A stretch of 22,816 nucleotides of DNA from a virus: IMG/VR virus record IMGVR_UViG_3300042863_000119, positions 1-22,816 of that record. One strand, 5' to 3'. The notes under the pieces are model-generated. The model was given only the letters and a program-made list of their open reading frames with translations. It was not told the origin of the DNA and did no database searches. Both the position numbers and the translations under genes were made by a program. This document shows positions 5,664-20,359 of this stretch, one piece after another (positions within the stretch are counted from its first letter, which is position 1; every line of letters begins with the position of its first letter).

Positions 5664-8169
5664 AGAAGTCCTCAAGTGAAGCTTCATCTTCTGACTTCCA
5701 ACCAATAGCATTAAGAATGATTTCAGCTGGATCTAAGAAAGCTTTTTGAAATTGTATATCGTTATCAATAAACTTATGAAGACCGAATTCAGGTGGAAGA
5801 ACTTGACTGAATCCAATGACATCTTCACGAGTTGGATTGCGAGGATTTAAGTACACGTACTTAATCTTTTCGCCTTCCTTGATTACCTCATATTTATTCT
5901 CCAAGCCATGCTGCTTCAATAAGTGATTATACATCAAAGCTGCACGTGAATTAATTGGAGTACCTTTACCGTAAACAGTTTTCTTATCTACGTACTTTTT
6001 GAGCGAAGAGACGCCACGAGGGAAAGCCTTCTGTTCGACGGGTAGACTGTCAAAGGTATTCCTAAAGTTGTGTATAAACTGTTGAGTTTCCTGCTCAGTA
6101 CCTTTGATGAGAATCTTGAAGAGTTCTTCCATAGCTTCCCTACACGGCGCAGGAGTAGACGATTTGATGGCCTCGATCCCCATGATCTTGAGTTTTGGTT
6201 TAGCATATCTTACTCCTTCATTGTCCCATACGTTTAAGATGTATCGTTTCTTTGCAGTCCAGATTCCACGATCAGCAATACTTTCACGCTTCATACTGAT
6301 GCGATGCTTGTGTACATTGAGATTCTTTGCAAGATCTTTAAATGCAACATCAAGTACATCGTTTTCGATCTTTTGACAAACCTTGTCTACGAAATCAACT
6401 TTCTTATTAGAAGGACTATCAGGCATAACGGTATTGACAAGATCAGATAGAGTAATATAAACGGAATCAGTGTCGATAGCCAGGACATAATCTTTATTAG
6501 TTTTGAGTACAGAATTTAGATAACCATTAACGTGCTTTTCAGCCCACTTAATAATCATCTGACCAGTGATAGTAATACCTTCAGCGATTTCCATTGTGAA
6601 GTAACGGAAGTATTTATTTCCAAGTGCGCCATAAAGCGAGTTTAAAAGAATCTTAATTGCTAGTTGTTGGTTTTCAAAGTGACCAATGTCACGTTCAATA
6701 CGATACACTTCAGCTTTGTTATCTTTATCACATGCTTCAAGTTCTTTCTTAGATTCAATCATCTTTTTCTTGATGAATGTACGTTCAGTGTACATTTCTT
6801 CAATGATTCGTGGCATAAAGCCTTGCTTCTCGTTAGAGAAGTATTGACCTGTTGCCGCCATAGACATATTGTTCTCGTTCTTGTAACCAGCAAGACACTT
6901 TTCAATTGTCATACTAGGTTCAACCTTTCCTTTCAAGATTGTTTCTGGACTCATGTTCCATTGTACAATGATGTTAGGATAAAGCGAGTTAACGTCAAAG
7001 GAAGCAACCCAATCGTGTATTCCGCACTGAGGTTCTTTTACGTAACCACCTTCATAGTCAGTTTTATAACTATCTTTGTTTGGAGGTACGATGATGTTCT
7101 GTGCTAAAAGATCTCGATGAATCAACGAATCCCAGATACTTACAGTTCCCATAGTATCAGAGTAGTTGACACCAGCTTTATATGCCATAGTTACTGTCAA
7201 CGTAATCATAGCAATCTTGTCTTCCATCTGATCTACTAGATCAACGTCTTTGATGTTGTAATCAATAAACTTTTGGTGATCTGTTTGATAGAGAGTATGC
7301 AGTGTACCATCATACGCAAGTTTGCGTTCGCCAAGTACAACCCAAGCAATGTGATCTAGACGATATGATTCCTGTGGACCAAATGAATAACCGAACTTCT
7401 GGAATAGATCCATATAGTCAAGTTGTGGAACTCCGACGATATCATAGATCTGAACCATTCCCTTCTTCATCGTAACCATACGTTCTTCAACCTGACCCCA
7501 AGGTGAAAGTTTCTTCACTTCATCTTGTCCAAGGATTCTGTTGATACGATTTACGAGATATGGAATATCAAATGTACGAATGTTCCAACCTGTCACTGCG
7601 TCAGGACATGTAATTTCATCATGCCAAAATGCTACAAACAGTTTAAGCATGTGAGCTTCGTCGATACATTTAGTGTATCGAACTTGAGAAGTTTTCATGA
7701 TAGACTTCTCAACATCATAGTCACCTAGTGCCCACACGAAGAACGTATCTAGAACAGAGTCTTTAATACAGATTGCTGTGACAGGATGTTTAGCTTCATC
7801 GGGTTCTGGGAAGCCTTCGTTAGATGCGACTTCGATATCGATGTTATGGATACGAATCTTATTGCGTTCAAACTTGATTTCACCTGGAAATTCTTGAGCA
7901 ATAAACTGTGCTATGTAGTTGGTGTTACCATAGATGTTGAAGTTCTCAACACCATCGTAGCGTTCCATGAATTCTTTTGCTTCACGCATGGAAGCCATTT
8001 CAACTGCATCAACGTTTGTTCCATCAAGTGCAGTGAACTTAGAGTTGCCTTTACCTTTCACATAGAGTGTAGGTTTGAAAGCAATCTTCTTGCGGATACG
8101 ACGACCGTCAGTGTACCCGCGAAATAGTAGATTGTTGCCGTAACGATTGATTGATGTATAAAAGTGCAT
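5656..8169 (-). CDS. 43: Family B DNA polymerase (T4 gp43)
   Basis: An 837-residue replicative polymerase with proofreading exonuclease. Exo I has D111 and E113 (NIDIEV), Exo II D201 (GWNIRTFDIP) and Exo III D308 (YNIKDVD). Polymerase motif A is FDVNSLYPNI with D392, motif B KILLNSLYGALGN (506-518), and motif C IDTDSVY with D566 and D568. WTAKKRY and KIMGIEAIKSSTP follow, as in T4. The last residues, SLEDFFG, correspond to the T4 clamp-binding tail. It is about 60 residues shorter than T4 gp43, mainly between the motifs. No Shine-Dalgarno is visible before the ATG. Transcription probably starts inside the terminator hairpin just upstream. Confidence 0.98.
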   Translation of the reverse strand: MHFYTSINRYGNNLLFRGYTDGRRIRKKIAFKPTLYVKGKGNSKFTALDGTNVDAVEMASMREAKEFMERYDGVENFNIYGNTNYIAQFIAQEFPGEIKFERNKIRIHNIDIEVASNEGFPEPDEAKHPVTAICIKDSVLDTFFVWALGDYDVEKSIMKTSQVRYTKCIDEAHMLKLFVAFWHDEITCPDAVTGWNIRTFDIPYLVNRINRILGQDEVKKLSPWGQVEERMVTMKKGMVQIYDIVGVPQLDYMDLFQKFGYSFGPQESYRLDHIAWVVLGERKLAYDGTLHTLYQTDHQKFIDYNIKDVDLVDQMEDKIAMITLTVTMAYKAGVNYSDTMGTVSIWDSLIHRDLLAQNIIVPPNKDSYKTDYEGGYVKEPQCGIHDWVASFDVNSLYPNIIVQWNMSPETILKGKVEPSMTIEKCLAGYKNENNMSMAATGQYFSNEKQGFMPRIIEEMYTERTFIKKKMIESKKELEACDKDNKAEVYRIERDIGHFENQQLAIKILLNSLYGALGNKYFRYFTMEIAEGITITGQMIIKWAEKHVNGYLNSVLKTNKDYVLAIDTDSVYITLSDLVNTVMPDSPSNKKVDFVDKVCQKIENDVLDVAFKDLAKNLNVHKHRISMKRESIADRGIWTAKKRYILNVWDNEGVRYAKPKLKIMGIEAIKSSTPAPCREAMEELFKILIKGTEQETQQFIHNFRNTFDSLPVEQKAFPRGVSSLKKYVDKKTVYGKGTPINSRAALMYNHLLKQHGLENKYEVIKEGEKIKYVYLNPRNPTREDVIGFSQVLPPEFGLHKFIDNDIQFQKAFLDPAEIILNAIGWKSEDEASLEDFFG

Positions 8170-8209
8170 AGTAAAAACAAAACCGGGATATAGTAATTAT
8201 ATCCCGGTT
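8170..8209 (-). terminator. Intrinsic terminator upstream of gene 43
   Basis: A 12-bp perfect stem (AACCGGGATATA with TATATCCCGGTT, loop ATTAC, 8181-8209) is followed on the minus strand by TTGTTTTTAC. It would end transcripts from the Sm-like gene at 8228. The -10 box of the next promoter lies in the stem and loop. Confidence 0.85.
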
Positions 8210-8224
8210 ACGATTAGAAGTACA
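8196..8224 (-). promoter_or_regulatory. Promoter overlapping the terminator, drives gene 43
   Basis: The -35 box TGTACT (8219-8224) is 17 nt from TATAAT (8196-8201), with TAATCGT in the spacer. The predicted start, about 7 nt past the -10 box, falls at the end of the loop or in the 3' arm of the hairpin, so the new transcript could not refold the terminator. Confidence 0.7.
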
Positions 8225-8227
8225 ATC

Positions 8228-8536
8228 TTAAACTATAATTGAAGGTGGAATATCATTAGCTGCCGCTACGATAATCCCAGATCCAAAGATTCGATTGTAT
8301 TCATTGATCAATTTGATATCGAGTTCGATTTCACCAATGATGCCACGTTCATAAATTCGAACTACGCTATCTTTTGCGAATGGAGCAAATGGAGCAAAAG
8401 CTGCACCAACTCTTCCATCTTCTGTTTGCTGCACCACAATTTGTGCTGGCTTATTTAGAATATATCCATTCTGATCCTTTTCAGCATCAGAGATAATGTC
8501 TTCACCTGTTACTAGTCTGTACACTCTTACTGTCAT
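8228..8536 (-). CDS. Sm-like (LSM) small protein, copy 1
   Basis: A 102-residue beta-rich protein opening with MTVRVYRLVTGEDIISDAEK, followed by GYILNKPAQIVVQ, FAPFAPFAKDSVVRI and EYNRIFGSGI. The order of short strands with a G-E-x-I turn fits an Sm-like fold. I recall that a small protein of this type from a marine cyanophage-like source was solved as an Sm-like ring, but I have not verified the match. It is clearly paralogous to the protein at 21209-21580, with LVTGE, LN-P-Q, a FAPF/CPFT block and Y-N/D-R-(I/L) in the same order. If it is a true Sm-like ring it may bind RNA. GGAG lies 6 nt before the ATG. The gene ends just before the terminator and promoter of gene 43. Confidence 0.72.
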   Translation of the reverse strand: MTVRVYRLVTGEDIISDAEKDQNGYILNKPAQIVVQQTEDGRVGAAFAPFAPFAKDSVVRIYERGIIGEIELDIKLINEYNRIFGSGIIVAAANDIPPSIIV

Positions 8537-8549
8537 AATATTCTCCGTG

Positions 8550-8690
8550 TTAAATCATACCTCGACGCATTAAATTTCTCATGCGTTGTTCGAGGTCGTA
8601 ATGGTTAGTTGCATCAGCAAGGTATGCTTCGATCTCTTTCTGATAATCAACTGTGAAAGTCTTTAAGACCCAGTCCCAAAACTCTTTCAT
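8550..8690 (-). CDS. DUF3563-like small protein
   Basis: A 46-residue protein: MKEFWDWVLKTF, then IEAYLADATNHYDLEQRMR and LMRRGMI. The A/S-Y-L-x-x-A-x-(N/D)-x-x-D-L-E-x-R-M-R pattern is that of DUF3563, a short helical family seen in proteobacteria and phages and without known function. The ATG at 8690 overlaps the TGA of the 30-residue ORF before it as ATGA. It is followed 13 nt later by the Sm-like gene. The match is by motif from memory; the gene itself is well supported by its context and by filling an otherwise empty gap. Confidence 0.75.
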   Translation of the reverse strand: MKEFWDWVLKTFTVDYQKEIEAYLADATNHYDLEQRMRNLMRRGMI

Positions 8691-8779
8691 TTTACTTTAC
8701 CCGCCTTGTACTGTTTGTATTCGGCAAGATAAGCTTGAAGTTTACTTAATAGTAGATTAAAGCTTTGAACTAATCTCAT
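8687..8779 (-). CDS. Tiny overlapping ORF, 30 residues
   Basis: The ORF encodes MRLVQSFNLL followed by LSKLQAYLAEYKQYKAGKVK. It starts inside the last 23 nt of the Hsp20 gene and stops by ATGA overlap on the DUF3563-like gene. An AAGGGGA sequence sits 6 nt before the ATG. The product would be one amphipathic helix with a basic end. The perfect fit between two coupled genes and the ribosome site favour a real gene. Its length and the lack of any known relative keep the call tentative; it could also serve only to couple translation. Confidence 0.5.
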   Translation of the reverse strand: MRLVQSFNLLLSKLQAYLAEYKQYKAGKVK

Positions 8780-9254
8780 CTTTGTCCCCTTCAGTTAGGA
8801 ATTGTTTTTCACCTTTGGATTTGACAACAATCTTTTTTGGTTTCTTAGACTCCGGAACTAAACGCTCCAAAGCAATCTTAAGCATACCATTAAAGATTTC
8901 TGCATTTTTAACTTCTACTTGATCATTCAAAGCAAATGAACGAGTGAAAGCTCTATTAGCAATTCCTTTGAAAAGGAAGTCATCATCTTCAGCAGTTTGC
9001 ACATTACCTTTGACAACTAACTTATCACCATCAAGTTCAATATCGATATCATGTTGGCCAAAACCAGCTACAGCAATCTCAATCGTGTAGTGAGTGTCAT
9101 CATGTTTCTTGATATTATATGGTGGATAGTTTGGAATATTCTTCGTAACATCATCATGTAATTTTTGAAGACGAGAAAACTGGTCATCAAAACCAACAAA
9201 GAATTTATCCAAGTCTTTAGTGCCCCAGAAAGTAGGGATAAAATTGTTTCCCAT
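8757..9254 (-). CDS. hsp20: Small heat shock protein, Hsp20/IbpA type
   Basis: A 165-residue chaperone that would hold unfolding proteins for later refolding. The N-terminal arm (FVGFDDQFSRLQKL) and the YPPYNIKK entry to the alpha-crystallin domain (about 43-142) match bacterial IbpA. So do AVAGFGQHDI, KLVVKG, LFKGIANRAFTRSF and the NGMLKIALERLVPESKKPKKI block with its usual final strand. Hsp20 genes are a recurring feature of marine T4-like phages, where help in folding virion or replication proteins has been suggested. The start at 9254 has a strong AAGGAG 6-7 nt upstream. The reading frame continues upstream without such a site. It follows the possible phasin-like gene by 10 nt. Confidence 0.93.
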   Translation of the reverse strand: MGNNFIPTFWGTKDLDKFFVGFDDQFSRLQKLHDDVTKNIPNYPPYNIKKHDDTHYTIEIAVAGFGQHDIDIELDGDKLVVKGNVQTAEDDDFLFKGIANRAFTRSFALNDQVEVKNAEIFNGMLKIALERLVPESKKPKKIVVKSKGEKQFLTEGDKDEISSKL

Positions 9255-11106: not shown

Positions 11107-12045
11107 TTATTTAAACTTTAGTTGAGCCATGATTTCAGTAAGTGCTGCCATCGTATTGATTTCACGATCTGCAACAAATGCTGCTTTGTATTGGTAATCA
11201 GCAAGAATCAAAACCAATTGAGGAACAGAACCCTGTTCCATATAGTCGTTTGCTTTATCATAAAGCTTACGAAACAATTCAGTAGATTCTACATCAGAAT
11301 TTTTACCAACCCACTTGCGCACTTCAGTAAAGTTCTTAGCTTTAAGATTCTTTACAAGTTCTACGTATGATTCATCGCCAAGGTTGACAAGTAAACCTGC
11401 ATCAATCTTGCCTGATACAGAATAGCGCTGTAGTTCATTAAGAATACGGCGATAGTCTGGAAAGTATTTAGTAATTAGTTCAGCAACTACTTTACCATCA
11501 GCCTCAACTTTTTCGAATGAAAGAATGTCAAGAACACGACGATAGAATCCTGCAGCAATCTTTGGCTTTTCAGAATTATCTATTTTGAATTCGACCACTG
11601 CACACCTAGAATGCAAAGGTTCGATGATTCTGTTTTTGAAGTTGCAAGTAAAGATGAATCGACAGTTATTACTAAACTCTTCGATGAAGCCACGTAGAGC
11701 AGGCTGAGTAGAATTAGCGTTAAGATAATCAGCTTCATCGAGGATAACCACTTTCTTAGAATCAGTTAGAGATACAGAAGATGCAAAGCTCTTGATCTTA
11801 TTACGAAGTACATCAATACCAGATTCTTCAGAACCGTTAATGAATAGATACTCTGCACCGATCTCATTGCATAGTGCTTTTGCAACTGTAGTTTTACCTA
11901 CGCCTGCACCACCACAGAACAAGAAGTTAGGCAACTCTCCGGAGTTAATAAACTCGCGGAAAGTGTTCTTCATTGAATCTGGTAGAATACATTCGTCGAT
12001 AGTTTGAGGACGATACTTTTCAACCCAGAGATATTGATTACTCAT
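11107..12045 (-). CDS. 44: Clamp-loader ATPase subunit (T4 gp44)
   Basis: A 312-residue AAA+ protein. From ATG 12045 it opens with YLWVEKYRPQTIDECILP, the RFC-type start. Walker A is GGAGVGKT (45-52), Walker B ILDEAD (101-106), sensor 1 TCNFKNRI and the arginine-finger SRC box 146-148 (PLHSRC). The C-terminal helical collar follows. Length is close to T4 gp44 (about 319). Four copies with gp62 open and load the gp45 ring at primer ends. The chosen start has AAAGG a few nt upstream. The frame extends 14 residues further upstream without support. Its start overlaps the 49-residue ORF before it by 8 nt. T4 RegA represses gp44, so similar control is likely here. Confidence 0.97.
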   Translation of the reverse strand: MSNQYLWVEKYRPQTIDECILPDSMKNTFREFINSGELPNFLFCGGAGVGKTTVAKALCNEIGAEYLFINGSEESGIDVLRNKIKSFASSVSLTDSKKVVILDEADYLNANSTQPALRGFIEEFSNNCRFIFTCNFKNRIIEPLHSRCAVVEFKIDNSEKPKIAAGFYRRVLDILSFEKVEADGKVVAELITKYFPDYRRILNELQRYSVSGKIDAGLLVNLGDESYVELVKNLKAKNFTEVRKWVGKNSDVESTELFRKLYDKANDYMEQGSVPQLVLILADYQYKAAFVADREINTMAALTEIMAQLKFK

Positions 12046-12187
12046 CGTAGCCTTTTCCAAAACCAATGTAAATATTGAAACAACCAATTAAAAGAGTGAT
12101 TGAAATTTGATGCGGAAAGGGGTCAACTGAAATGAACAGTCCAAACCCCCTCACCACACTAATAACAAATCTAGGACCGGATCCCAT
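12038..12187 (-). CDS. Small beta-rich ORF between genes 45 and 44
   Basis: A 49-residue ORF: MGSGPRFVISVVRGFGLFIS, then DPFPHQISITLLIGCFNIYI and GFGKGYDE. The alternation of hydrophobic residues suggests four or five beta strands rather than a membrane helix. GGAG lies 8 nt before the ATG, which itself begins 2 nt after the gene 45 stop. The ORF runs through the whole gap and ends in the first codons of gene 44 (8-nt overlap). That tight fit with a ribosome site makes it likely to be translated and to couple clamp and loader synthesis. No family is assigned. Confidence 0.6.
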   Translation of the reverse strand: MGSGPRFVISVVRGFGLFISVDPFPHQISITLLIGCFNIYIGFGKGYDE

Positions 12188-12188
12188 T

Positions 12189-12848
12189 TTAGAACTCCGA
12201 GTCAGCTTCAACAGCAATGAAGTATGTCAAGTCAGAAGCAGTATGCTTAAAACGAGAGATCTTCTTCTTAGAGATTTCGACTGTATAGTCATTAGGCAAC
12301 ATCTTCAAGTTTTCTACTTTCAGATTAGCTTTGAATGTTTCATCTGTATCGCCAAGGATAACTTCATATGCATTGGATGTATCGTTCTTCTTATCGGAAA
12401 CAATAACCTTAAGCTTACCATCTGTACCTACAATAGATACATCACTTGCTTTCAATGCAGATGATGTACGCTGAATCATAGCCAGTTGCGATGCATCGAG
12501 CGTGAACGTAACGTCTGCTGCTGGAAACTTGATAGTTGTTGGCGCTGACTTGACAACACCTTCGCCTGCTGCGAAGTACTTAATGCGAGAGGTTCCACCA
12601 TCTGAAACCAATACATATTTTTCTTGGAAGTCGAGGTTAGTCGTTTGGAAGAGAGATACCACATTCAGAAACTCGTTAAGATCGTAAATACCAAAGTCCA
12701 TCGGAAGGTCTTCAGCAATCGTGGCTTCTGCCATGACGTTTTTACCTTCAGAGATTGTAGCCAACTTATTGCCAGCCTTGAGCATCAGACTTCCATTAAT
12801 ACCTGCGAAGTTTTTGATGAGTGTTAGTGTGTCTTTTGACAGTTCCAT
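12189..12848 (-). CDS. 45: Sliding clamp (T4 gp45)
   Basis: A 219-residue processivity factor forming a trimeric ring on DNA. The start MELSKDTLTLIKNFAGINGS matches the T4 N-terminus, and FGIYDLNEFLNVVSLF, GTSRIKYFAAGEG and the end YFIAVEADSEF also match. T4 gp45 is 228 residues. The ring tethers polymerase gp43, and in T4 it is also the mobile activator of late transcription through gp55. In this window both partners carry a SLxxFF-type clamp motif. The ATG overlaps the preceding stop as TAATG, with AAAGG upstream. Expression probably begins at the promoter at 13535-13563. Confidence 0.96.
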   Translation of the reverse strand: MELSKDTLTLIKNFAGINGSLMLKAGNKLATISEGKNVMAEATIAEDLPMDFGIYDLNEFLNVVSLFQTTNLDFQEKYVLVSDGGTSRIKYFAAGEGVVKSAPTTIKFPAADVTFTLDASQLAMIQRTSSALKASDVSIVGTDGKLKVIVSDKKNDTSNAYEVILGDTDETFKANLKVENLKMLPNDYTVEISKKKISRFKHTASDLTYFIAVEADSEF

Positions 12849-13171
12849 TATTTGCCTTTCTGTTTGTTGAATGCATCAACAATTCTTTCATGTTGTTCGA
12901 CTGAGCAGTAGAGAGTCCATTCACGTGGCCCAGTGTTTTCTGCGTCAGTGGGTAAGTTATAACCTAAGACAGTACATGGTCGACTTCCATAATCATTGCG
13001 TTCAACTGAGAAGCATTTGATCTTATTAAAGTCGATAGACACTGTTGCTTTAGAAGTATCTTCGTCATTCTTAACTCGCAGTAGTTCTGCTTTAAGACGT
13101 TCAACATTAGCGTTGGCATCTTCGAGTTTAACTTTAAGATTTGAAACTTCAAGTTTGCTTGTGAAAAACAT
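12848..13171 (-). CDS. Coiled-coil small protein, unknown
   Basis: A 107-residue protein. Residues about 5-40 form a likely coiled coil (KLEVSNLKVKLEDANANVER then LKAELLRVK). A compact second half has strands ATVSIDFNKIKCFSVERND and WTLYCSVEQHERIVDAF. I do not recognise it. It starts by TAATG overlap on the diphosphohydrolase-like gene, with AAGGA upstream. It ends by TAATG overlap on the sliding clamp, so translation of gene 45 is likely coupled to it. That position suggests a replication accessory, but nothing in the sequence proves this. Confidence 0.75.
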   Translation of the reverse strand: MFFTSKLEVSNLKVKLEDANANVERLKAELLRVKNDEDTSKATVSIDFNKIKCFSVERNDYGSRPCTVLGYNLPTDAENTGPREWTLYCSVEQHERIVDAFNKQKGK

Positions 13172-13506
13172 TATTTGTCCTTAGAGTATTTGACATCGTG
13201 TTCGTATAGAAAAGCAAGGCAACACATTGCATGTGCCAAGTGATGAATATCAGATTCTGGATCAATCTGTTCACCCATTTTCCATGCCCAGATGTGACGT
13301 TCTAGTGCATCAAAATATCGAGTCTTAGATTCTGGAACATGTTTCCAGTTATCCGGTTCATACTTTTCTGCACCAAATGTTAGTACCTTTACCATTTCAG
13401 CAAAGGCAAGAGGTGGAGTTAAACCATAGCGCAGTTTGCCACCATCAAACTTGCGACCACCGGTAGTAGCGGTTTGTGATTTCTTAATGATATCTTTAGT
13501 TGACAT
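13171..13506 (-). CDS. dATP/dGTP diphosphohydrolase-like protein (DUF5664)
   Basis: A 111-residue helical protein. RKFDGGKLRYGLTPP (18-32), FGAEKYEPDNW (44-54), RYFDALERH (63-71), GEQIDPES and HHLAHAMCCLAFL (88-100) are the family blocks. They belong to phage proteins annotated as dATP/dGTP diphosphohydrolase-like (DUF5664). The His and acidic residues would bind metal and nucleotide. The predicted job is removal or reshaping of purine deoxynucleotides during phage DNA synthesis; specificity is not visible. I place the start at ATG 13506; the frame continues upstream into the terminator. No clear ribosome site precedes it. The leader from the promoter at 13535-13563 would be only about 22 nt. 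Confidence 0.82.
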   Translation of the reverse strand: MSTKDIIKKSQTATTGGRKFDGGKLRYGLTPPLAFAEMVKVLTFGAEKYEPDNWKHVPESKTRYFDALERHIWAWKMGEQIDPESDIHHLAHAMCCLAFLYEHDVKYSKDK

Positions 13507-13570: not shown

Positions 13571-13816
13571 TTAGTTAAACATACCCAAAGAATGTGCAAC
13601 TTTGATCATGCTTGCAGTTGGTTTACCAACTTTATACTTGATCGTGCGTTCGCCGGTTGTCAATGTTGCTTCGTTTGCGTAAACACAAACACCTTGGCTA
13701 CGTAGCGCATGAATTGCTGCAGTAGGATTCTGCAAACCAAACATACCTGTAATCTGCTTAGGTGTTGCGGTGGATCCAGACTTCAAATAAGCTTCTAGGC
13801 GGGAAAGTTTAGTCAT
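13571..13816 (-). CDS. Small winged-helix-like protein
   Basis: An 81-residue protein: MTKLSRLEAYLKSGSTATPK, then QITGMFGLQNPTAAIHALRS, a beta hairpin (GVCVYANEATLTTGERTIKYKVG) and a C-terminal helix. Helix-turn-helix followed by a beta wing is the outline of a small winged-helix DNA-binding domain; I do not recognise the exact family. The ATG at 13816 has GGAG 6 nt upstream, whereas the longer frame would start inside the upstream terminator. It is isolated between two terminators (13848-13884 and 13511-13551), so it should be a one-gene transcript. I see no sigma70-type promoter in the short gap. A regulator acting on the promoters here is a reasonable but untested idea. Confidence 0.7.
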   Translation of the reverse strand: MTKLSRLEAYLKSGSTATPKQITGMFGLQNPTAAIHALRSQGVCVYANEATLTTGERTIKYKVGKPTASMIKVAHSLGMFN

Positions 13817-13900: not shown

Positions 13901-14242
13901 TTAAGCAGTTTCCATTATACCATTTTCTGCTAGTTCTGTAAAAAATTCTTTATCTTCTTGTTCAGATTTGATTTCTACAGTCTTAGTAGCTACCTTTGCC
14001 GGTGCTTGAGCGAGTTCAGGCGCTGGGAACTTATACATCCCACGACTAACTTTGTCGCCTTTCACAAGCCACATAGGGTAACCAATCTTTTCGCCACCGT
14101 GTTCGCGTTCAGAATGAAGAATCCAAAAGATTTCTTCAATGTCAGTACGGGAAATTGATTCAGCAGTTGCCAGATCAGGACGAATATTGACGAAGGCATC
14201 GATACAGCGTTTCTGAGCCTTAGACAGTTGAGAGTAATTCAT
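13901..14242 (-). CDS. Small protein sharing the AAA ATPase N-terminal domain
   Basis: A 113-residue protein. Residues 21-74 (RPDLATAESISRTDIEEI ... GYPMWLV ... KVSRGMYKFPAP) match residues 15-59 of the adjacent AAA ATPase (FPDVSTTGQVTRDQIVHTM ... KWPNWIL ... RVSRGLYAVPG). The shared pattern is P-D-x-x-T, then S/T-R-x-x-I, then P-x-W-(L/I), then (K/R)-V-S-R-G-(M/L)-Y-x-x-P. The rest is a Lys/Glu-rich tail (KVATKTVEIKSEQEDKEF). It has no ATPase region. It may be a duplicated recruitment domain that competes with or extends the substrate range of the ATPase. The ATG at 14242 has AAAGG upstream, and the promoter is at 14277-14305. Confidence 0.78.
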   Translation of the reverse strand: MNYSQLSKAQKRCIDAFVNIRPDLATAESISRTDIEEIFWILHSEREHGGEKIGYPMWLVKGDKVSRGMYKFPAPELAQAPAKVATKTVEIKSEQEDKEFFTELAENGIMETA

Positions 14243-14276
14243 AATAAAGACCTTTCGGGATTTCAAGTTATAGTAT

Positions 14277-14305
14277 ATTATATCACATGTACGAATTAAT
14301 GTACA
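14277..14305 (-). promoter_or_regulatory. Sigma70-type promoter, TGTACA-17-TATAAT
   Basis: TGTACA (14300-14305), a 17-nt spacer with TAATTCGT and a TGTGA extension, then TATAAT (14277-14282). It sits in the gap after the AAA gene and drives the 113-residue gene with a leader of about 28 nt. Confidence 0.75.
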
Positions 14306-14310
14306 GGGAT

Positions 14311-15420
14311 TTAGAAGGGAATTTCAACATCAGCTTGTTGCACTTCAGTTTGAGGAGGCGCTTCTGGTATAGAAACCTTTTCAAATAGATCTGCAAATGC
14401 ATTACGAGTGATATCGTCAAACCTGTTAATACACAATTCAACTGCCTTCTTCTTATCTTTAAAGATAGAGAAAGCTCTGACGATGTGTACCAAACGTCTA
14501 GTGGTAATGGTTTCATCCACACCACCATCTGCAAAAGTCCTACGAATTGCATCAGCCCACTTAACAAGCGTTGAGGCAAATTCTTCATCTTCACAGTTGA
14601 AGGACTTCATCAGATTCATTACAATCTTCTTTTCAATCGCAGCACTTGGGTACTCCTGATTGAAAGTGACTGCGAAACGCTCAAGGAAAGCTTCGTTCAA
14701 GACGTTCGTACCAATGTAACGACCATCATCTGAACCCTTACCTTTAGTGTTAGCCGTAGCGAACACAGTGAAACCTTGAGTAGGATAGATCAACTCATTC
14801 TTAAGTTTGAAGTAATATGGCTTACCTTCAAGGATAGGCTGTAAGCAAAGCAGAGTGTTTGCAGAACCTGCATCAATTTCGTCAAGCAAAAGAGGAATAC
14901 CATTACGCATTGCGTATAGAACTGGACCTTCAACAACTTCAACGTTACCTTCAACAAGAGTCTTAGAGCCAATCAGTTGATCTTCGTCAGTCATCATGTT
15001 CAAGTTAACACGAATGAGAGGGCGCTTGTTCTTAGCACAGGCTTGTTCGACTGTAGTAGACTTACCATTGCCAGTTGGACCAGAAATGTACGCAGGATAG
15101 AACTGACGTGATTTGATAATCGTATCAATGTCTTTATGGTTACCAAACGGTACGTAATTTGCGTCTTGCTTTGGAATCAAAGACGTTGCATCTTCAGGAA
15201 GGTCTACTGCTTTCATTTCTGGTTCTTTCGGAACTGCGTTAGAACCAGGAACCGCATACAGTCCACGACTGACGCGATTCTGAAGGATCCAATTTGGCCA
15301 CTTCTTAGTGCCAAGTTTTTCCATTGTATGGACGATTTGATCTCGTGTGACTTGACCTGTAGTTGACACATCAGGGAACTCAGTAACGAGGGCGAAGAGG
15401 AAGGTTTGATCTGTATTCAT
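14311..15420 (-). CDS. CobS/MoxR-type AAA+ ATPase
   Basis: A 369-residue ATPase. Residues 1-60 are a small domain shared with the next gene. The AAA+ core follows: Walker A GPTGNGKS (114-121), Walker B PLLLDEID (176-183), sensor 1 FATANTKGKG, then the arginine region NEAFLERFAVTF, and a helical lid to about 345. Marine T4-like phages carry similar genes annotated cobS. Cobaltochelatase is unlikely as the function, because no other cobalamin gene is visible. MoxR-type ATPases work with VWA proteins to remodel partners or insert metals, and a VWA gene lies directly upstream. The -10 box is 6 nt from the ATG and no ribosome site exists, so the mRNA should be leaderless. Confidence 0.9.
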   Translation of the reverse strand: MNTDQTFLFALVTEFPDVSTTGQVTRDQIVHTMEKLGTKKWPNWILQNRVSRGLYAVPGSNAVPKEPEMKAVDLPEDATSLIPKQDANYVPFGNHKDIDTIIKSRQFYPAYISGPTGNGKSTTVEQACAKNKRPLIRVNLNMMTDEDQLIGSKTLVEGNVEVVEGPVLYAMRNGIPLLLDEIDAGSANTLLCLQPILEGKPYYFKLKNELIYPTQGFTVFATANTKGKGSDDGRYIGTNVLNEAFLERFAVTFNQEYPSAAIEKKIVMNLMKSFNCEDEEFASTLVKWADAIRRTFADGGVDETITTRRLVHIVRAFSIFKDKKKAVELCINRFDDITRNAFADLFEKVSIPEAPPQTEVQQADVEIPF

Positions 15421-15426
15421 AATTTA

Positions 15427-15455
15427 ATTATATCAAAAACACGAATTATTGTACA
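15427..15455 (-). promoter_or_regulatory. Promoter predicting a leaderless AAA mRNA
   Basis: TGTACA (15450-15455), 17 nt including TAATTCGTG, then TATAAT (15427-15432). Exactly six bases separate the -10 box from the ATG at 15420, so the expected start site is the A of the ATG. Confidence 0.75.
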
Positions 15456-15459
15456 CCGT

Positions 15460-17541
15460 TCAGGACACAATTCCAATAAATTTTGACAAAACTATACGAG
15501 AAGTCTTACGCATGTTCATAACCTTGCTTAGTTCTCGAGCAATTTGACCTGCATTCATCGTATTTGAATTGATTTCAAGTTCACGATCTTGGATCTTTAC
15601 ATCAGTTGGAAGTAGATAAAATTCATCACGACCTATAACATCCTTCATAACATAGTGCTTATCCCTACGAAGTGAGTGGATAATCTTATCAGCTAAAGAA
15701 GACATTTGCGTAGGAGTCAATCCAATCGTATTATGCTTTACAAAACCAATAGCAGAACGTGTGCTATTATTCAGCAAATAGAAACCTACACTGTTAACGG
15801 CGTATCTGTCACGTATCAAACTCAATAGTGCTGCAGTTTGCTCGTTTGCGCTTCCACCAATGTCATAATCACGCTTCGTAATAGGATCACGTAAAATGCA
15901 TTGACGATTGACACGAGTTGGAGCGCCATTTGAAGTGTACTCATATGAAAATCCATTCTTTATATTCTTACTATAAGAATATAGTGGACCTCCTTCACCA
16001 TCAGTAAGAGTAATGAAAGACATCTTCTCAACATCATAGTTCTTAATGAACTTACCAACATAATCAACCATGAACAATAGTGCTTCGTTCAATGGAGTAC
16101 CATTCAAACCATAGCCATTTTTGTTCCAGGGACGAGTCATAAGACATTCTGTCATCTTATTAAATTCAGCACTAGTCATTTTATGTGAATAGAACTCTAA
16201 TAGATTGAACGATGAAGCGTTACTTAGACCATATTCATTTGTCACAGCAGTTTCTTGAGTTCCATATTTACTAGTATGACCATCAGTGAAGGCAAAGACT
16301 TGATATGGAATTTGAATTCGTTGGCAAAACATAGCCAAGTTAATCACTTGTTCAAGAGTTTCCTCGATACAGTTAGACATAGAACCAGACCAGTCAAGTA
16401 GGAAAACCATTCCATGCTTCTTACCTTCTTGTACTTGCATCACCGATCTAAACAAATCTTCCTTAAGCTTATAAGCATAAAGCTTTTTAGAATCGAGTTG
16501 ACCAATCTTTGCAATCTTTGCACGCTTGTACATCGAAGCAGACTTCTTCATCTCAAATTCTTTGATAAGATAGTTCACCATTGGCGAAGAAGAAGATTTG
16601 AATTGAAGAAACTTATGCTTATTGATCTCATCGGGTTCACGTTTAATCCCATTGAGCACAGTGCGGTAGGGAACAATTACTTCGTTAGATTCAATTTCGA
16701 ACTTTGGTTCGAAGTAAGTTACTCGCAAAGATTCATCAGCCAACTGTTCGAGTTTTTTGTCAAACTTTTCAAGAGTTTTAGCCTTTAGTTCTTCAGTAAG
16801 TTCTTCTTTAGGATCTACTAGGTTAGGTTTACCTTTGACTCTTCTAGGAGTTCTTGGACGATCATCGTCTTCAAGTTCGTCGTACTCCATTTCGTCGTCA
16901 GAGTATTCACCATCATCCTCGTCATACTCGTATTCTTCTTCCTCTTCTTCTTCTATCTTAGGAAGACCACGTCTTTGGCGTTCAAGTTCTTCTTGGCTAA
17001 AGCCATAAATTTCTTCAGCAAGGCGAACAACGTCTTCTTCAGTCTGGCATTTGTCTACACGTCGAATAATTTCTTGTTCAGCAGCAGTGAATGTAACACC
17101 ACAGTTGAAACCAACTTTGAAGTAGAGATTGATCTTGTCAATTAAGAGAGCTTGTGATAGGTCTTTATCTTTAGCACCAAAGAAGTCACGTTCATTGAGT
17201 TCACGGTAACCCATGTTGAAAGACTTACGGGAACCAGGATAACGTTCCTTCATTTTCTTTTCGATACGAACGTCTTCGATGACGTTAGCATAATCTTTAA
17301 GGTGACGCTTCTTCTCAAAGACTTCGCTGTAGATAGACTTAGGGTCTGTGAAAAGTGCGTGTCCAACTTCATGCAGCATGAGCATTTCTTCAACCGTAGG
17401 TGTCATTTCCTTCCAACGAGGAAGGCGAAGGACACGATTGAGAATGTCAAATGAAGCTGTGGAAACATCACCGCGTACAACAGTGATGTTCTCGGTGGCT
17501 AGCAATTTAGCCAGAATGTCGGTGGATTGTTGTGTAATCAT
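15460..17541 (-). CDS. VWA-domain protein with HExxH metallopeptidase motif
   Basis: A 693-residue protein. HEVGH (57-61) with the later NVIEDVRIE (E89) forms a likely zinc site of the zincin kind. An acidic low-complexity segment (197-227) follows. Then comes a long helical linker and a VWA domain beginning at VFLLDWSGSMS (MIDAS residues D383, S385, S387), with NGTPLNEAL and FITLTDGEGG supplying the other metal-binding loops. This order (peptidase-like N-terminus, acidic region, VWA) recalls CobT-like VWA partners of MoxR/CobS ATPases. I infer that it works with the AAA protein encoded next. Its substrate is unknown. The start at 17541 is preferred, since an in-frame ATG at 17559 overlaps the -10 box. 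No ribosome site is present. Confidence 0.88.
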   Translation of the reverse strand: MITQQSTDILAKLLATENITVVRGDVSTASFDILNRVLRLPRWKEMTPTVEEMLMLHEVGHALFTDPKSIYSEVFEKKRHLKDYANVIEDVRIEKKMKERYPGSRKSFNMGYRELNERDFFGAKDKDLSQALLIDKINLYFKVGFNCGVTFTAAEQEIIRRVDKCQTEEDVVRLAEEIYGFSQEELERQRRGLPKIEEEEEEEYEYDEDDGEYSDDEMEYDELEDDDRPRTPRRVKGKPNLVDPKEELTEELKAKTLEKFDKKLEQLADESLRVTYFEPKFEIESNEVIVPYRTVLNGIKREPDEINKHKFLQFKSSSSPMVNYLIKEFEMKKSASMYKRAKIAKIGQLDSKKLYAYKLKEDLFRSVMQVQEGKKHGMVFLLDWSGSMSNCIEETLEQVINLAMFCQRIQIPYQVFAFTDGHTSKYGTQETAVTNEYGLSNASSFNLLEFYSHKMTSAEFNKMTECLMTRPWNKNGYGLNGTPLNEALLFMVDYVGKFIKNYDVEKMSFITLTDGEGGPLYSYSKNIKNGFSYEYTSNGAPTRVNRQCILRDPITKRDYDIGGSANEQTAALLSLIRDRYAVNSVGFYLLNNSTRSAIGFVKHNTIGLTPTQMSSLADKIIHSLRRDKHYVMKDVIGRDEFYLLPTDVKIQDRELEINSNTMNAGQIARELSKVMNMRKTSRIVLSKFIGIVS

Positions 17542-17547
17542 GTTGCT

Positions 17548-17576
17548 ATTATACACCATCCACGATTTATTGTAAA
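17548..17576 (-). promoter_or_regulatory. Promoter predicting a leaderless VWA mRNA
   Basis: TTTACA (17571-17576), 17 nt with AAATCGT, then TATAAT (17548-17553). As at the AAA gene, six bases separate the -10 box from the ATG (17541). Confidence 0.75.
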
Positions 17577-17591: not shown

Positions 17592-19304
17592 TTAAACTAT
17601 AGCAGAGAAGTCATTCTTCTTCTCAAATTTAATCACTGAATGGAACTTGTCAAACAGTTGATCGCCTTTATGAGATATAACAAAGATGTTCGTCTTATCT
17701 CCAAGAGCATTCATTACAGATAGGAAGTAGTCTGTACCAGCGTTATCGAGACTTGAATCAAAGATCTCGTCAAGAATTAGAAGGTTAGTATTTACAGAGT
17801 TCTTCATCTTTGCAATTTGACGCCACGTGAATAAGATTGCTAAGTCAATACGCATCTTTTCACCTTCGGAAAATGAAGCATAGGTGAACTCATCACGGAA
17901 GCGCGACTTAATCTTTTCATTGAAAGATTCATCTAGTTCAAAGTGAACATAGAAGTCCATAGCGGTTAGATACCCATTGATGAACTTGTTCATGACAGGC
18001 AAGTACTCTTTAATGATAGCAGTCTTAATGCCAGTATCTTTTAAAAGTAATGCTGCAACTTCTTGAACATTTCGTTCAGATGATAGTTCATTCTTCTTAT
18101 CAATAAGAGTTACTGCTTCACTTGCAATTTCTTTTAAGCGTACATTTTCTTCATCAATATTTACGGTGTCCTCTTTAGTAGACTCCATATCAGTTGTGAG
18201 TTTCTTGTTCTGATTAGTAAGAGTCTTGTTAGCAGTATGAATAGCGTTACACTGAACGTTTAAAGCTAATAGTTGTTTATTGATTTCATCAAGTTTTTCT
18301 TGACGCTCAATCAACTTATCATAAGCTTCAGCAATAGTCATGAGATTAGTATCAATCTCTACGAGATCTTCATTCAAACCTGTGACGATCTGTGACTTAT
18401 GTTCATGTGGTATGTTTTGAGAACACGATGGACATACTTCGTTGTTAAGAAAGAATGATAGATTTTCTTCAGCCTGATCTTTAGTGTGTACTAACTTACT
18501 CTTTGCTTTATTAGCTGCAGTGATAAGTTGTTCTAACTCTTTAGCATTATCACACTCAGCCATGATATCATTCATCTGATCAGTTATAGTTTCCCAGCGC
18601 GTCTCATTCGCAGCAATCTCTGTTTCATTATCCTCAATTTGCTTACGTATCTGGTCCACCTGATCTTTCTTAGAGTTAACCAATGTCCCAATGAGTTTTT
18701 TCTGAGCCTCAACATTGTTCTTCGCCCCCTCAATCTTATTCTCAATTGTTTTGATGTGATCTTTGGTTTCATTAATGCGCTCCTTTAAAATCTGGTTCAT
18801 CGTAGAGAATACGCCAATGTCAAGAATGTCTTCAATAACTTCACGACGTTGGTGAGCAGGCAGTTGCATGAATGGAACAAACGATGCTGATCCAAGGATA
18901 ACAACTTGTGTGAATGTTTTATAGTTGAGTTTAAGAATCTGTTGCTCTAAGACTTTCTGATAATCTTTGGCAGCAGAGTCTTGGTTTGCCATTACACCAT
19001 TACACCAGATTTCAAAGATCCCAGGTTTAATACCACGAACAATCTTGTATTCAGTAGTGCCAATGTCAAACTCGATAGTAACTACACAACCTTTGCCATT
19101 GATAGAATTAATCAATTGTGGTTTGTTAATGTTACGGAATGGTTTACCAAAGAGTGCGAATGTAAGAGCATCCAACATTGTTGACTTGCCCTCGCCATTA
19201 CGACCAATAACTAAAGTGCTTTGAGACTTGTTGAGCGAGATTTTATTAGGAGAGTTTCCTGTTGATAAAAAGTTCTTCCACTCTAAAGTCTTAAATATGA
19301 TCAT
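17592..19304 (-). CDS. 46: Recombination endonuclease subunit gp46 (Rad50/SbcC-like)
   Basis: A 570-residue SMC-type ATPase. The N-terminal half has Walker A GRNGEGKS (34-41), then a coiled coil from about 170. The zinc hook is CPSC (291-294), and a second coiled coil runs to about 415. The C-terminal half has the ABC signature SFSEGEKM (477-484), Walker B LLILDEIFD (508-516) and the switch His at ISHKGD (545). With gp47 it processes double-strand ends to expose 3' tails for UvsX, and in T4 it also degrades host DNA. The start overlaps the gene 47 stop as TAATG. Length is near T4 (560). Very confident. Confidence 0.96.
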   Translation of the reverse strand: MIIFKTLEWKNFLSTGNSPNKISLNKSQSTLVIGRNGEGKSTMLDALTFALFGKPFRNINKPQLINSINGKGCVVTIEFDIGTTEYKIVRGIKPGIFEIWCNGVMANQDSAAKDYQKVLEQQILKLNYKTFTQVVILGSASFVPFMQLPAHQRREVIEDILDIGVFSTMNQILKERINETKDHIKTIENKIEGAKNNVEAQKKLIGTLVNSKKDQVDQIRKQIEDNETEIAANETRWETITDQMNDIMAECDNAKELEQLITAANKAKSKLVHTKDQAEENLSFFLNNEVCPSCSQNIPHEHKSQIVTGLNEDLVEIDTNLMTIAEAYDKLIERQEKLDEINKQLLALNVQCNAIHTANKTLTNQNKKLTTDMESTKEDTVNIDEENVRLKEIASEAVTLIDKKNELSSERNVQEVAALLLKDTGIKTAIIKEYLPVMNKFINGYLTAMDFYVHFELDESFNEKIKSRFRDEFTYASFSEGEKMRIDLAILFTWRQIAKMKNSVNTNLLILDEIFDSSLDNAGTDYFLSVMNALGDKTNIFVISHKGDQLFDKFHSVIKFEKKNDFSAIV

Positions 19305-20359
19305 TAATTAATTTCCTTGTTAAGAGCTTCAGTGTAAAGCAATTTCATAAAATTCTTTACACGCTCTTTGTCTACTTCTGTCTCCACAGAATCAATATAA
19401 TTTGATAACACCATTGGCGTGTCTTCAAGATTAATGCTTTCGTCAACTTCACCTTCAGTAAATTCAGAGAAGTTCTCTACTATTTTAACATCTAAAGGAT
19501 TTTTTGTATATACCCTTGTGATGAACTTATCAAATTTATAGAAGTCTGTTTTGTTGACGACGATAATCTTGACGTATTTGTCAGTGCAAAAACTAGTGTC
19601 AATAGAATCAGGATCCCAGGCGGTATCGTCATATTCAAACCTCTCAAATAAACTATATGTGTTTTGAACGAACTCTAACTTACGTGTTTCTAAATCAAAA
19701 ATATGGAATCCACGAGGATCATTATAATCTTGCCATGTTAATTCATAAGGATTGCCGAGATAATAAACATGACCGTTGTCAGACTTATGATGATAATGTC
19801 CTGAGAATACCATGTCAAATTTATTAAAAGCTTCTTTAGATAATCCATCATGAGATTCTGCTCCTCTGTACATTGCAAATCCTGCAATCTCTAGGTGACC
19901 CATACAGATTTCAGCTTTAGTATTTTTAATTTCATCCATTGAGTATGTGTAGTTGTCTGCACAAATCCAAGGGAGAAAACAAATGGGAGTGCCATGAATG
20001 CTAATTGTTTCTGGCATTGTAACAATGTTGATGTTAACATATTCGGCCAGTGTTAGTTCAGGACTATTTACTTCATTAGTATTCTTGAAGTATGTGTCGT
20101 GATTACCTGCGATCATGGTAATCATCATGTCATTGTCGTATGCTACATCGAAGAACATCTTCTTAGCACGAGAAAGAGTATTGAAGTTAATAAACTTACG
20201 ACGATCAAACGTATCGCCAAGAATTAGAATCGTCATGATTCCAGTTTCTTTTAATTTTGGAAAGAATATATTCTTATAGAAGTTTTGATAATAATCTAAA
20301 CACTGTGTACTATCTCCACGAGCTCCAAAGTGTTGGTCTGTAATGATTGCTACTTTCAT
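19304..20359 (-). CDS. 47: Recombination endonuclease subunit gp47 (Mre11/SbcD-like)
   Basis: A 351-residue metallophosphoesterase nuclease. Its metal ligands lie in TDQHFGAR (D8, H10), ILGDTFDRR (D49), AGNHDTY (N86, H87), CMGHLEIAG and FSGHYHHKSD, the standard Mre11 motif order. The final 60 residues, acidic then helical (VEDKERVKNFMKLLYTE-like), probably dock on the gp46 coiled coil. It is the nuclease of the gp46/47 complex. Translation overlaps the 51-residue gene upstream (ATGA) and gp46 downstream (TAATG), so the pair is made in step. T4 gp47 is about 339 residues. Confidence 0.96.
   Translation of the reverse strand: MKVAIITDQHFGARGDSTQCLDYYQNFYKNIFFPKLKETGIMTILILGDTFDRRKFINFNTLSRAKKMFFDVAYDNDMMITMIAGNHDTYFKNTNEVNSPELTLAEYVNINIVTMPETISIHGTPICFLPWICADNYTYSMDEIKNTKAEICMGHLEIAGFAMYRGAESHDGLSKEAFNKFDMVFSGHYHHKSDNGHVYYLGNPYELTWQDYNDPRGFHIFDLETRKLEFVQNTYSLFERFEYDDTAWDPDSIDTSFCTDKYVKIIVVNKTDFYKFDKFITRVYTKNPLDVKIVENFSEFTEGEVDESINLEDTPMVLSNYIDSVETEVDKERVKNFMKLLYTEALNKEIN

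Follow-up and report, generated by a model that had tools for sequence, protein, structure and literature searches.

A VWA protein with a conserved HExxH motif and a MoxR/CobS-type AAA+ ATPase beside the replication and recombination genes of a T4-like virus

The window analyzed here, 22,816 nucleotides of IMG/VR record IMGVR_UViG_3300042863_000119, belongs to a T4-like virus and carries three adjoining open reading frames on the minus strand. These encode a VWA protein of 693 amino acids (P0001; 15460..17541, start taken at 17541), a MoxR/CobS-type AAA+ ATPase of 369 amino acids (P0002; 14311..15420), and a small protein of 113 amino acids (P0003; 13901..14242) that amounts to a freestanding ATPase N-terminal domain with a short tail. 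An upstream ATG at 17559 offers an alternative start for the VWA gene. On the same strand lie the genes of the SbcCD-like recombination nuclease (17592..20359; gp46 at 17592-19304 and gp47 at 19304-20359) and those of the sliding clamp and clamp loader (11107..12848; gp45 at 12189-12848 and gp44 at 11107-12051). The initial annotation had described a VWA protein with an HEVGH motif and a CobS/MoxR-type AAA+ ATPase in consecutive genes, and the reading frames, the motifs, and their conservation all bear out that description. The same annotation called the machine unassigned, which is true of its function but not of the pair, already on record in PHROGs, in cyanophage entries, and in a 2021 paper (PMC8651126). 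The two window proteins match PHROG 459 ("peptidase") and PHROG 249 ("CobS") over their full lengths (E values of 6e-170 and 7e-104, respectively), a pair found in hundreds of cyanophages and among the core genes of T4-like cyanophages. The window is a member of this Kyanoviridae group and has the same gene order, uvsW-gp55-gp47-gp46-VWA-ATPase-gp45-gp44, but its branch carries the small third gene in addition.

A Pfam scan of the window's VWA protein returned no domains, the VWA itself included, and its parts were delimited with an AlphaFold2 model and with conservation. An N-terminal domain (residues 1-190; 16972..17541) is followed by an acidic, low-confidence linker (residues 193-243; 16813..16965; pLDDT under 50) and by a helical extension that precedes the first VWA strand (residues 305-367; 16441..16629). 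KEFEM and G347 are invariant in this extension, which, compared with the description in PMC13036017, is a candidate for a NorD-type "finger." The MIDAS is complete, comprising D383-x-S385-x-S387 (DWSGS, residues 383-387; 16381..16395), T482 (16096-16098), and D514 (16000-16002), all invariant in 45 relatives. The extreme C terminus (residues 685-693; 15463..15489) is conserved as well, and in NorD the C terminus touches NorQ (PMC13036017). In a fold search with the full model, the best solved-structure matches of the VWA part were the NorD VWA domain in NorQD complexes (Z score of 16.4, 259 aligned, rmsd of 7.8) and the Midasin MIDAS domain (Z score of 15.4, 218 aligned, rmsd of 3.5).

The model arranges the N-terminal domain as a helix, three strands, the helix bearing HExxH, another helix, and a helix bearing E89, an order that fits a minimal zincin. 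The motif itself, HEVGH (residues 57-61; 17359..17373), has the form HExxH in 67 of the 68 N-terminal domains aligned across three groups; its H, E, and H occupy their alignment columns in every kyanophage-type (44/44), other-phage (7/7), and mobile-element (17/17) sequence, and the sole exception to the motif, L135 from a mobile element, has an extra residue (HEAGGH). The glutamate, which zincins need for catalysis and not for metal binding, is present in all 68. Because the relatives had been collected with peptide patterns that left HExxH out, this conservation is more than chance. The pair is also retained in nickie and BUCTxx99, two phages that read SEISK and REVST, respectively, in place of the motif, and catalysis is therefore not always needed. 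The initial annotation had proposed that a lack of conservation of HExxH in relatives would count against the site; it is indeed lost in these two phages but conserved in the window's own branch.

Downstream of HEVGH lies the segment NVIEDVRIE (residues 86-94; 17260..17286), in which N86, E89, D90, and R92 are invariant in the alignment of relatives of the window's protein. E89 is present where the histidines have been lost and is absent from ICP2, where they are present, so it may be structural instead; D90 tracks HExxH better. Of the HEVGH...E89 site first proposed, then, the conserved HExxH stands, and the role of E89 as a metal ligand is uncertain. We read the domain as a zincin-like arm that would bind zinc, relying on the motif and on the modeled order of strands and helices. 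Comparison of its profile with PDB sequences gave chance matches only, and Foldseek and VIA searches with the full VWA model returned VWA domains in every case and no zincin, an absence that reflects the design of a search dominated by the VWA part and is not evidence.

The ATPase opens with a domain of winged-helix-like helix and strand order (residues 1-66; 15223..15420). Its Walker A motif (residues 114-122; 15055..15081), with GPTGNGKS and K120, its Walker B motif LLLDE (residues 177-181; 14878..14892), with D180-E181, and residues N224 and R248 are invariant in 28 relatives. The intact Walker motifs and arginine finger are those of the MoxR clade of AAA+ proteins, sensor 1 is conserved too, and a beta-hairpin is predicted (residues 151-164; 14929..14970) where MoxR-clade proteins carry the helix-2 insert defined in PMC13036017. 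The closest solved structures are CbbQ2 (E value of 4e-20) and NorQ. The adjoining VWA protein, with its complete DxSxS-T-D MIDAS, makes the locus a MoxR AAA+/VWA pair, an earlier assignment that gains support from the closest structures on both sides, CbbQ/NorQ for the ATPase and the NorD VWA and Midasin MIDAS domains for its partner.

Roughly the first 70 residues of the small protein are homologous to the ATPase N-terminal domain, as found by BLASTP against the ATPase (E value of 2e-6) and by profile-profile comparison with that domain (98% probability, E value of 2.1e-13; reversed control, 0.6%). The earlier description of this protein as the N-terminal domain only thus holds for the homology but misses an extra tail of about 40 residues. 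Thirty-three related viral loci have the gene at this position. Its relatives are metagenomic only, with no matching phage record in INPHARED; it was not found in S-RIM50 type loci in the search for relatives, and its profile gave only chance matches against PDB sequences.

In viral loci of sufficient length for both, the VWA and ATPase genes are nearly always adjacent, as they are in 21 of the 22 mobile-element loci with enough flanking sequence, and more than a thousand plasmid records contain relatives. The pair adjoins gp46/47 and the clamp genes in the window and in Kyanoviridae, and in other phages it adjoins DNA polymerase III or a polymerase and primase-helicase. Phage replication genes cluster in any case, and the neighborhood in one phage is therefore weak evidence by itself. 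The cassettes of ICEs and conjugative plasmids adjoin genes for RecT (14/22 loci), a YqaJ-type nuclease (16/22), and SSB (8/22). Two other candidates were set aside: the distant CobS relative of Listeria phage P70, whose neighboring gene has no VWA or HExxH, and the MoxR-vWA ternary conflict system (PMC7159879), for which, by recognition alone, no VMAP, iSTAND, or effector was noticed among the neighbors.

The published reading of the pair, in archaeal and bacterial viruses, is that of cobaltochelatase CobST (PMC8651126), which would work with the CobN of the host to raise cobalamin supply. Both window proteins are distantly homologous to CobS and CobT, the NxxEDxRxE segment lining up with LEQARxE of CobT. 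There is a weak match of the ATPase to the CobS model, Pfam CobT scores above its cutoff against mobile-element relatives, and CobN-type genes are present in cyanobacterial hosts. However, the ATPase scores 97 bits against a curated cutoff of 558.55 for CobS TIGR01650, and the VWA protein has no match to the CobT models TIGR01651, PF06213, and PF11775. HExxH is absent from all 32 genuine bacterial CobT proteins compared, and these make up one side of a branch with 100/100 support that excludes the window; no CobN gene is adjacent to the window pair. CobN is missing from two of four genomes with a kyanophage-type gene, although these genomes may be incomplete, and E. coli K-12 MG1655, the host of a phage with a CobST-like pair, lacks the corrin-ring pathway. 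A chelatase role, already judged unlikely in the initial annotation, is on these family models, the motif, and the separate CobT clade very improbable.

The sequences instead favor a cassette for remodeling, and possibly cutting, proteins, tied to DNA replication and recombination. The reading that we prefer, and to which we give an even chance, is a NorQD-like AAA+/VWA remodeler that bears a zincin-like arm and works on a protein of replication or recombination. The two proteins would form a machine like NorQD or CbbQO, in which the ATPase hexamer would hold the VWA protein through the finger and the VWA C terminus and the MIDAS metal would bind an acidic residue of the target. The likeness to NorQ-NorD and CbbQ-CbbO extends over the closest folds for both proteins, the conserved MIDAS, the predicted hairpin insert, and the conserved C terminus; the window differs in its zincin-like N-terminal domain with HExxH and in lying outside any nitric oxide reductase or Rubisco context. 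This domain, with its HExxH and NxxED helix, would replace the targeting domain of NorD or CbbO, and the motor would hand it a replication or recombination protein to be held or cut. The small protein would probably tune or direct the ring.

The same machine might instead be a chaperone that remodels proteins or inserts metal without proteolysis, the HExxH metal being structural or for delivery and the target perhaps a metal-dependent phage nuclease or reductase. This somewhat unlikely but serious alternative likens the pair to NorQD, the inserter of iron into nitric oxide reductase. NorQD and CbbQO, its nearest relatives by structure, act by remodeling or metallation and not by cleavage, and the VWA-ATPase pair persists without the histidines in two phage lineages. 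Against this alternative stand the HExxH glutamate, needed by zincins for catalysis and kept without exception, and the description of the N-terminal domains of NorD and CbbO as variable and mutually unrelated (PMC9976466), hence not predictive here. A protease directed at a host protein, for takeover or counter-defense, would suit a conserved HExxH in a lytic phage and a small protein that could pick targets, but we think it improbable, since the HExxH cassette also sits beside SSB, RecT, and YqaJ in plasmids and ICEs, elements that take over no host, and the gene is kept throughout Kyanoviridae despite very different hosts. Equally doubtful is a motor-fed metalloprotease at DNA, an analogue of SPRTN/Wss1 with Cdc48, in which the ring would pull on proteins that adhere to viral and plasmid DNA or obstruct it while it is replicated and recombined, the HExxH domain would cut them, and cellular CobT would be a side branch after loss of the protease site.

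The pair is now counted among the vitamin B12 "auxiliary metabolic genes," and if it does remodel or cut proteins in replication or recombination, many ecological inferences on phage B12 metabolism need revision. A widely shared, unexplained machine of mobile elements would then also become testable in laboratory phages and plasmids, such as the E. coli phage PhiR41_1 and IncC plasmids. In the SXT element, deletion of s067, s068, and s070 lowered transfer by 10-fold or less (PMC2791158); if these are cassette genes, the cassette is not essential for conjugation. A literature search on DUF3150 gave nothing. The cassette of ICEs and IncC plasmids, ssb-RecT-YqaJ-AAA-(WGR-like)-DUF3150-VWA, differs from the window in its DUF3150 gene, in an often present gene that we label WGR-like and that has no Pfam match, and in that no small N-terminal-domain protein was noticed; what it shares with the window is the pair of AAA and HExxH-VWA genes next to genes of recombination.

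The VWA protein (15460 to 17541, 693 aa), the AAA+ ATPase (14311 to 15420, 369 aa) and the small protein (13901 to 14242, 113 aa) all lie on the minus strand, as initially annotated, in a T4-like replication block on the 22.8 kb viral window, ordered UvsW, gp55, gp47, gp46, VWA protein, ATPase and small gene, with the clamp gp45 and clamp loader gp44 farther along, past the small gene. The VWA/ATPase pair is already known, since it matches PHROG 459 (“peptidase”) and PHROG 249 (“porphyrin biosynthesis”), INPHARED records include 463 with the VWA protein and 531 with the ATPase, the majority from cyanophages, and cyanophage core genes include cobS (PMC3037559). The initial annotation, which treated the pair as unassigned, overlooked its cataloguing in PHROG and INPHARED. 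What this analysis adds is the separation from CobT by an HExxH motif and, for plasmids and integrative conjugative elements (ICEs), the recombination genes surrounding the pair.

Residues 57 to 61 of the VWA protein, numbered from a start at 17541, read HEVGH, with N86-V-I-E89-D90-V-R-I-E94 downstream. Relatives were collected by peptide patterns without HExxH, one of which included NxxED, so NxxED conservation in the mobile-element set is partly by construction. In the alignment, H, E and H filled their columns in all 44 kyanophage-type, all 7 other-phage and all 17 mobile-element N-domains, and strict HExxH was kept in 67 of the 68, the exception (L135) having HEAGGH, with one extra residue. 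L135 (VWA protein at 6737 to 8977) is an Azospirillum mobile-element locus, as is L140 (6674 to 8995), whose VWA protein likewise has HEAGGH; both keep NIIEDVRIE.

On sequence grounds, HExxH sets the window's pair apart from cobaltochelatase, and the earlier judgment that such a role is unlikely stands. The motif was found in 0 of 32 genuine CobT proteins, drawn from Alphaproteobacteria genomes by matches to CobT family models and examined over their first 200 residues; most have HDxxxH slightly downstream, and LEQARxE where the window's relatives have NxxEDxRxE. The window's ATPase fell short of the CobS family cut-off (97 against 558.55 bits), and its VWA protein matched no CobT family model. 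Maximum-likelihood analysis of 55 VWA proteins gave a tree with genuine CobT on one branch (100/100), separated from the window's group by a long 100/100 branch, the root being a midpoint only. Closest to CobT on this tree (93/92, not firm) were the HEAGH-bearing VWA proteins of Roseobacter phage CRP-810 and Cobavirinae phage T5S1, each preceded by a CobS-like ATPase with a long N-terminal extension (L186:1827-3680, 617 aa in total, and L188:3012-4607, 531 aa in total).

Conservation of the site was broad but incomplete. Pseudomonas phage nickie and Stenotrophomonas phage BUCTxx99 keep the pair, and Walker A in its ATPase, but their CobT-like proteins (L184:2983-5067 and L185:2980-4965) have SEISK and REVST in place of HExxH; they fall at two separate places on the tree, within a group otherwise keeping the motif. 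The proposed HEVGH...E89 site is present as a motif, but E89 is uncertain as third metal ligand because D90 tracks HExxH more closely across the aligned N-domains: E89 is retained in nickie, BUCTxx99 and CobT, all lacking HExxH, and ICP2 has HECYH but V at position 89, with D at 90. The N-domain may have a role beyond catalysis.

An AlphaFold2 model of the VWA protein (mean pLDDT 75) gave an N-domain of helix, three strands, HExxH helix, short helix and E89-bearing helix, an order that presumably agrees with small gluzincins. The proposed MoxR-VWA kinship was borne out: the ATPase best matched CbbQ2 and NorQ, and the VWA half came closest to the VWA domain of NorD from NorQD complexes (Z 16.4, 259 aligned, rmsd 7.8) and to the MIDAS domain of Midasin (Z 15.4, 218 aligned, rmsd 3.5). 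Neither the MIDAS residues (D383, S385, S387, T482, D514; 45 relatives) nor the ATPase motifs (28 relatives) varied. In NorQD, a VWA-domain finger inserts in the ATPase pore, and binding requires the NorD C-terminus (PMC13036017). Candidates for analogous contacts in the phage protein are a conserved extension ahead of the first VWA strand, with G347 invariant, and the C-terminal residue, also conserved (A in 93% of the relatives; S in the window's protein).

On bacterial contigs, relatives outside the kyanophage type belong to cassettes made up of SSB, RecT, YqaJ-type exonuclease, AAA, a gene that we call WGR-like (it matches nothing in Pfam), DUF3150 and VWA, an arrangement that recurs in plasmid and ICE loci L119, L120, L132, L133, L139, L141, L180 and L181. 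Among 22 bacterial-contig loci with enough flank, AAA was present in 21, DUF3150 in 17, YqaJ-type nuclease in 16, RecT in 14 and SSB in 8; recombination genes were absent around genuine CobT, whose loci are shorter. Plasmid records matching the VWA protein numbered 1,221, and the same cassette was found in conjugative plasmids, one IncC (AAA ATPase, ssb, bet, exo, DUF3150, VWA) and one MOBH (SSB, RecT, exonuclease, MoxR ATPase, DUF3150, VWA). In other phages the pair adjoins DNA polymerase III, or DNA polymerase and primase-helicase. The replication/recombination link thus recurs in unrelated element types. Our literature search found no mention of DUF3150. Deletion of s067, s068 and s070 in SXT changed transfer at most 10-fold (PMC2791158); we infer that these are cassette genes.

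Most likely, the pair forms a NorQD-like remodeller whose target is a protein of replication or recombination; unlike in NorQD, a zincin-like arm of the VWA partner would replace the NorD-type N-domain. Proteolysis by the HExxH domain is likely enough to test, since the motif's putative catalytic glutamate is kept in 68/68 aligned sequences; its main rival is metal insertion without cleavage.

The small protein is, as proposed, a copy of the ATPase N-domain (profile-profile probability 98%, E 2.1e-13; reversed control 0.6%); its suggested part as a selector stays a proposal. In 33 other viral loci its gene also follows that of the ATPase, mostly with a gap of <100 bases, whereas the same search did not find it in the S-RIM50 type loci, which are more distant. 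For the ATPase N-domain, the predicted succession of elements (helix, helix, strand, helix, helix, strand, strand) is reminiscent of a winged helix. Directly downstream of the small gene, a short gene at 13571 to 13816 (MTKLSRLEAYLKSG...) has a helix-turn-helix-like look and matches PHROG 4973, and a dATP/dGTP pyrophosphohydrolase-like gene (13171 to 13506, PHROG 801) lies between the three genes and the clamp gene. The window also encodes an Hsp20-type small heat-shock protein (8757 to 9254, PHROG 432), a known core gene of cyanophages.
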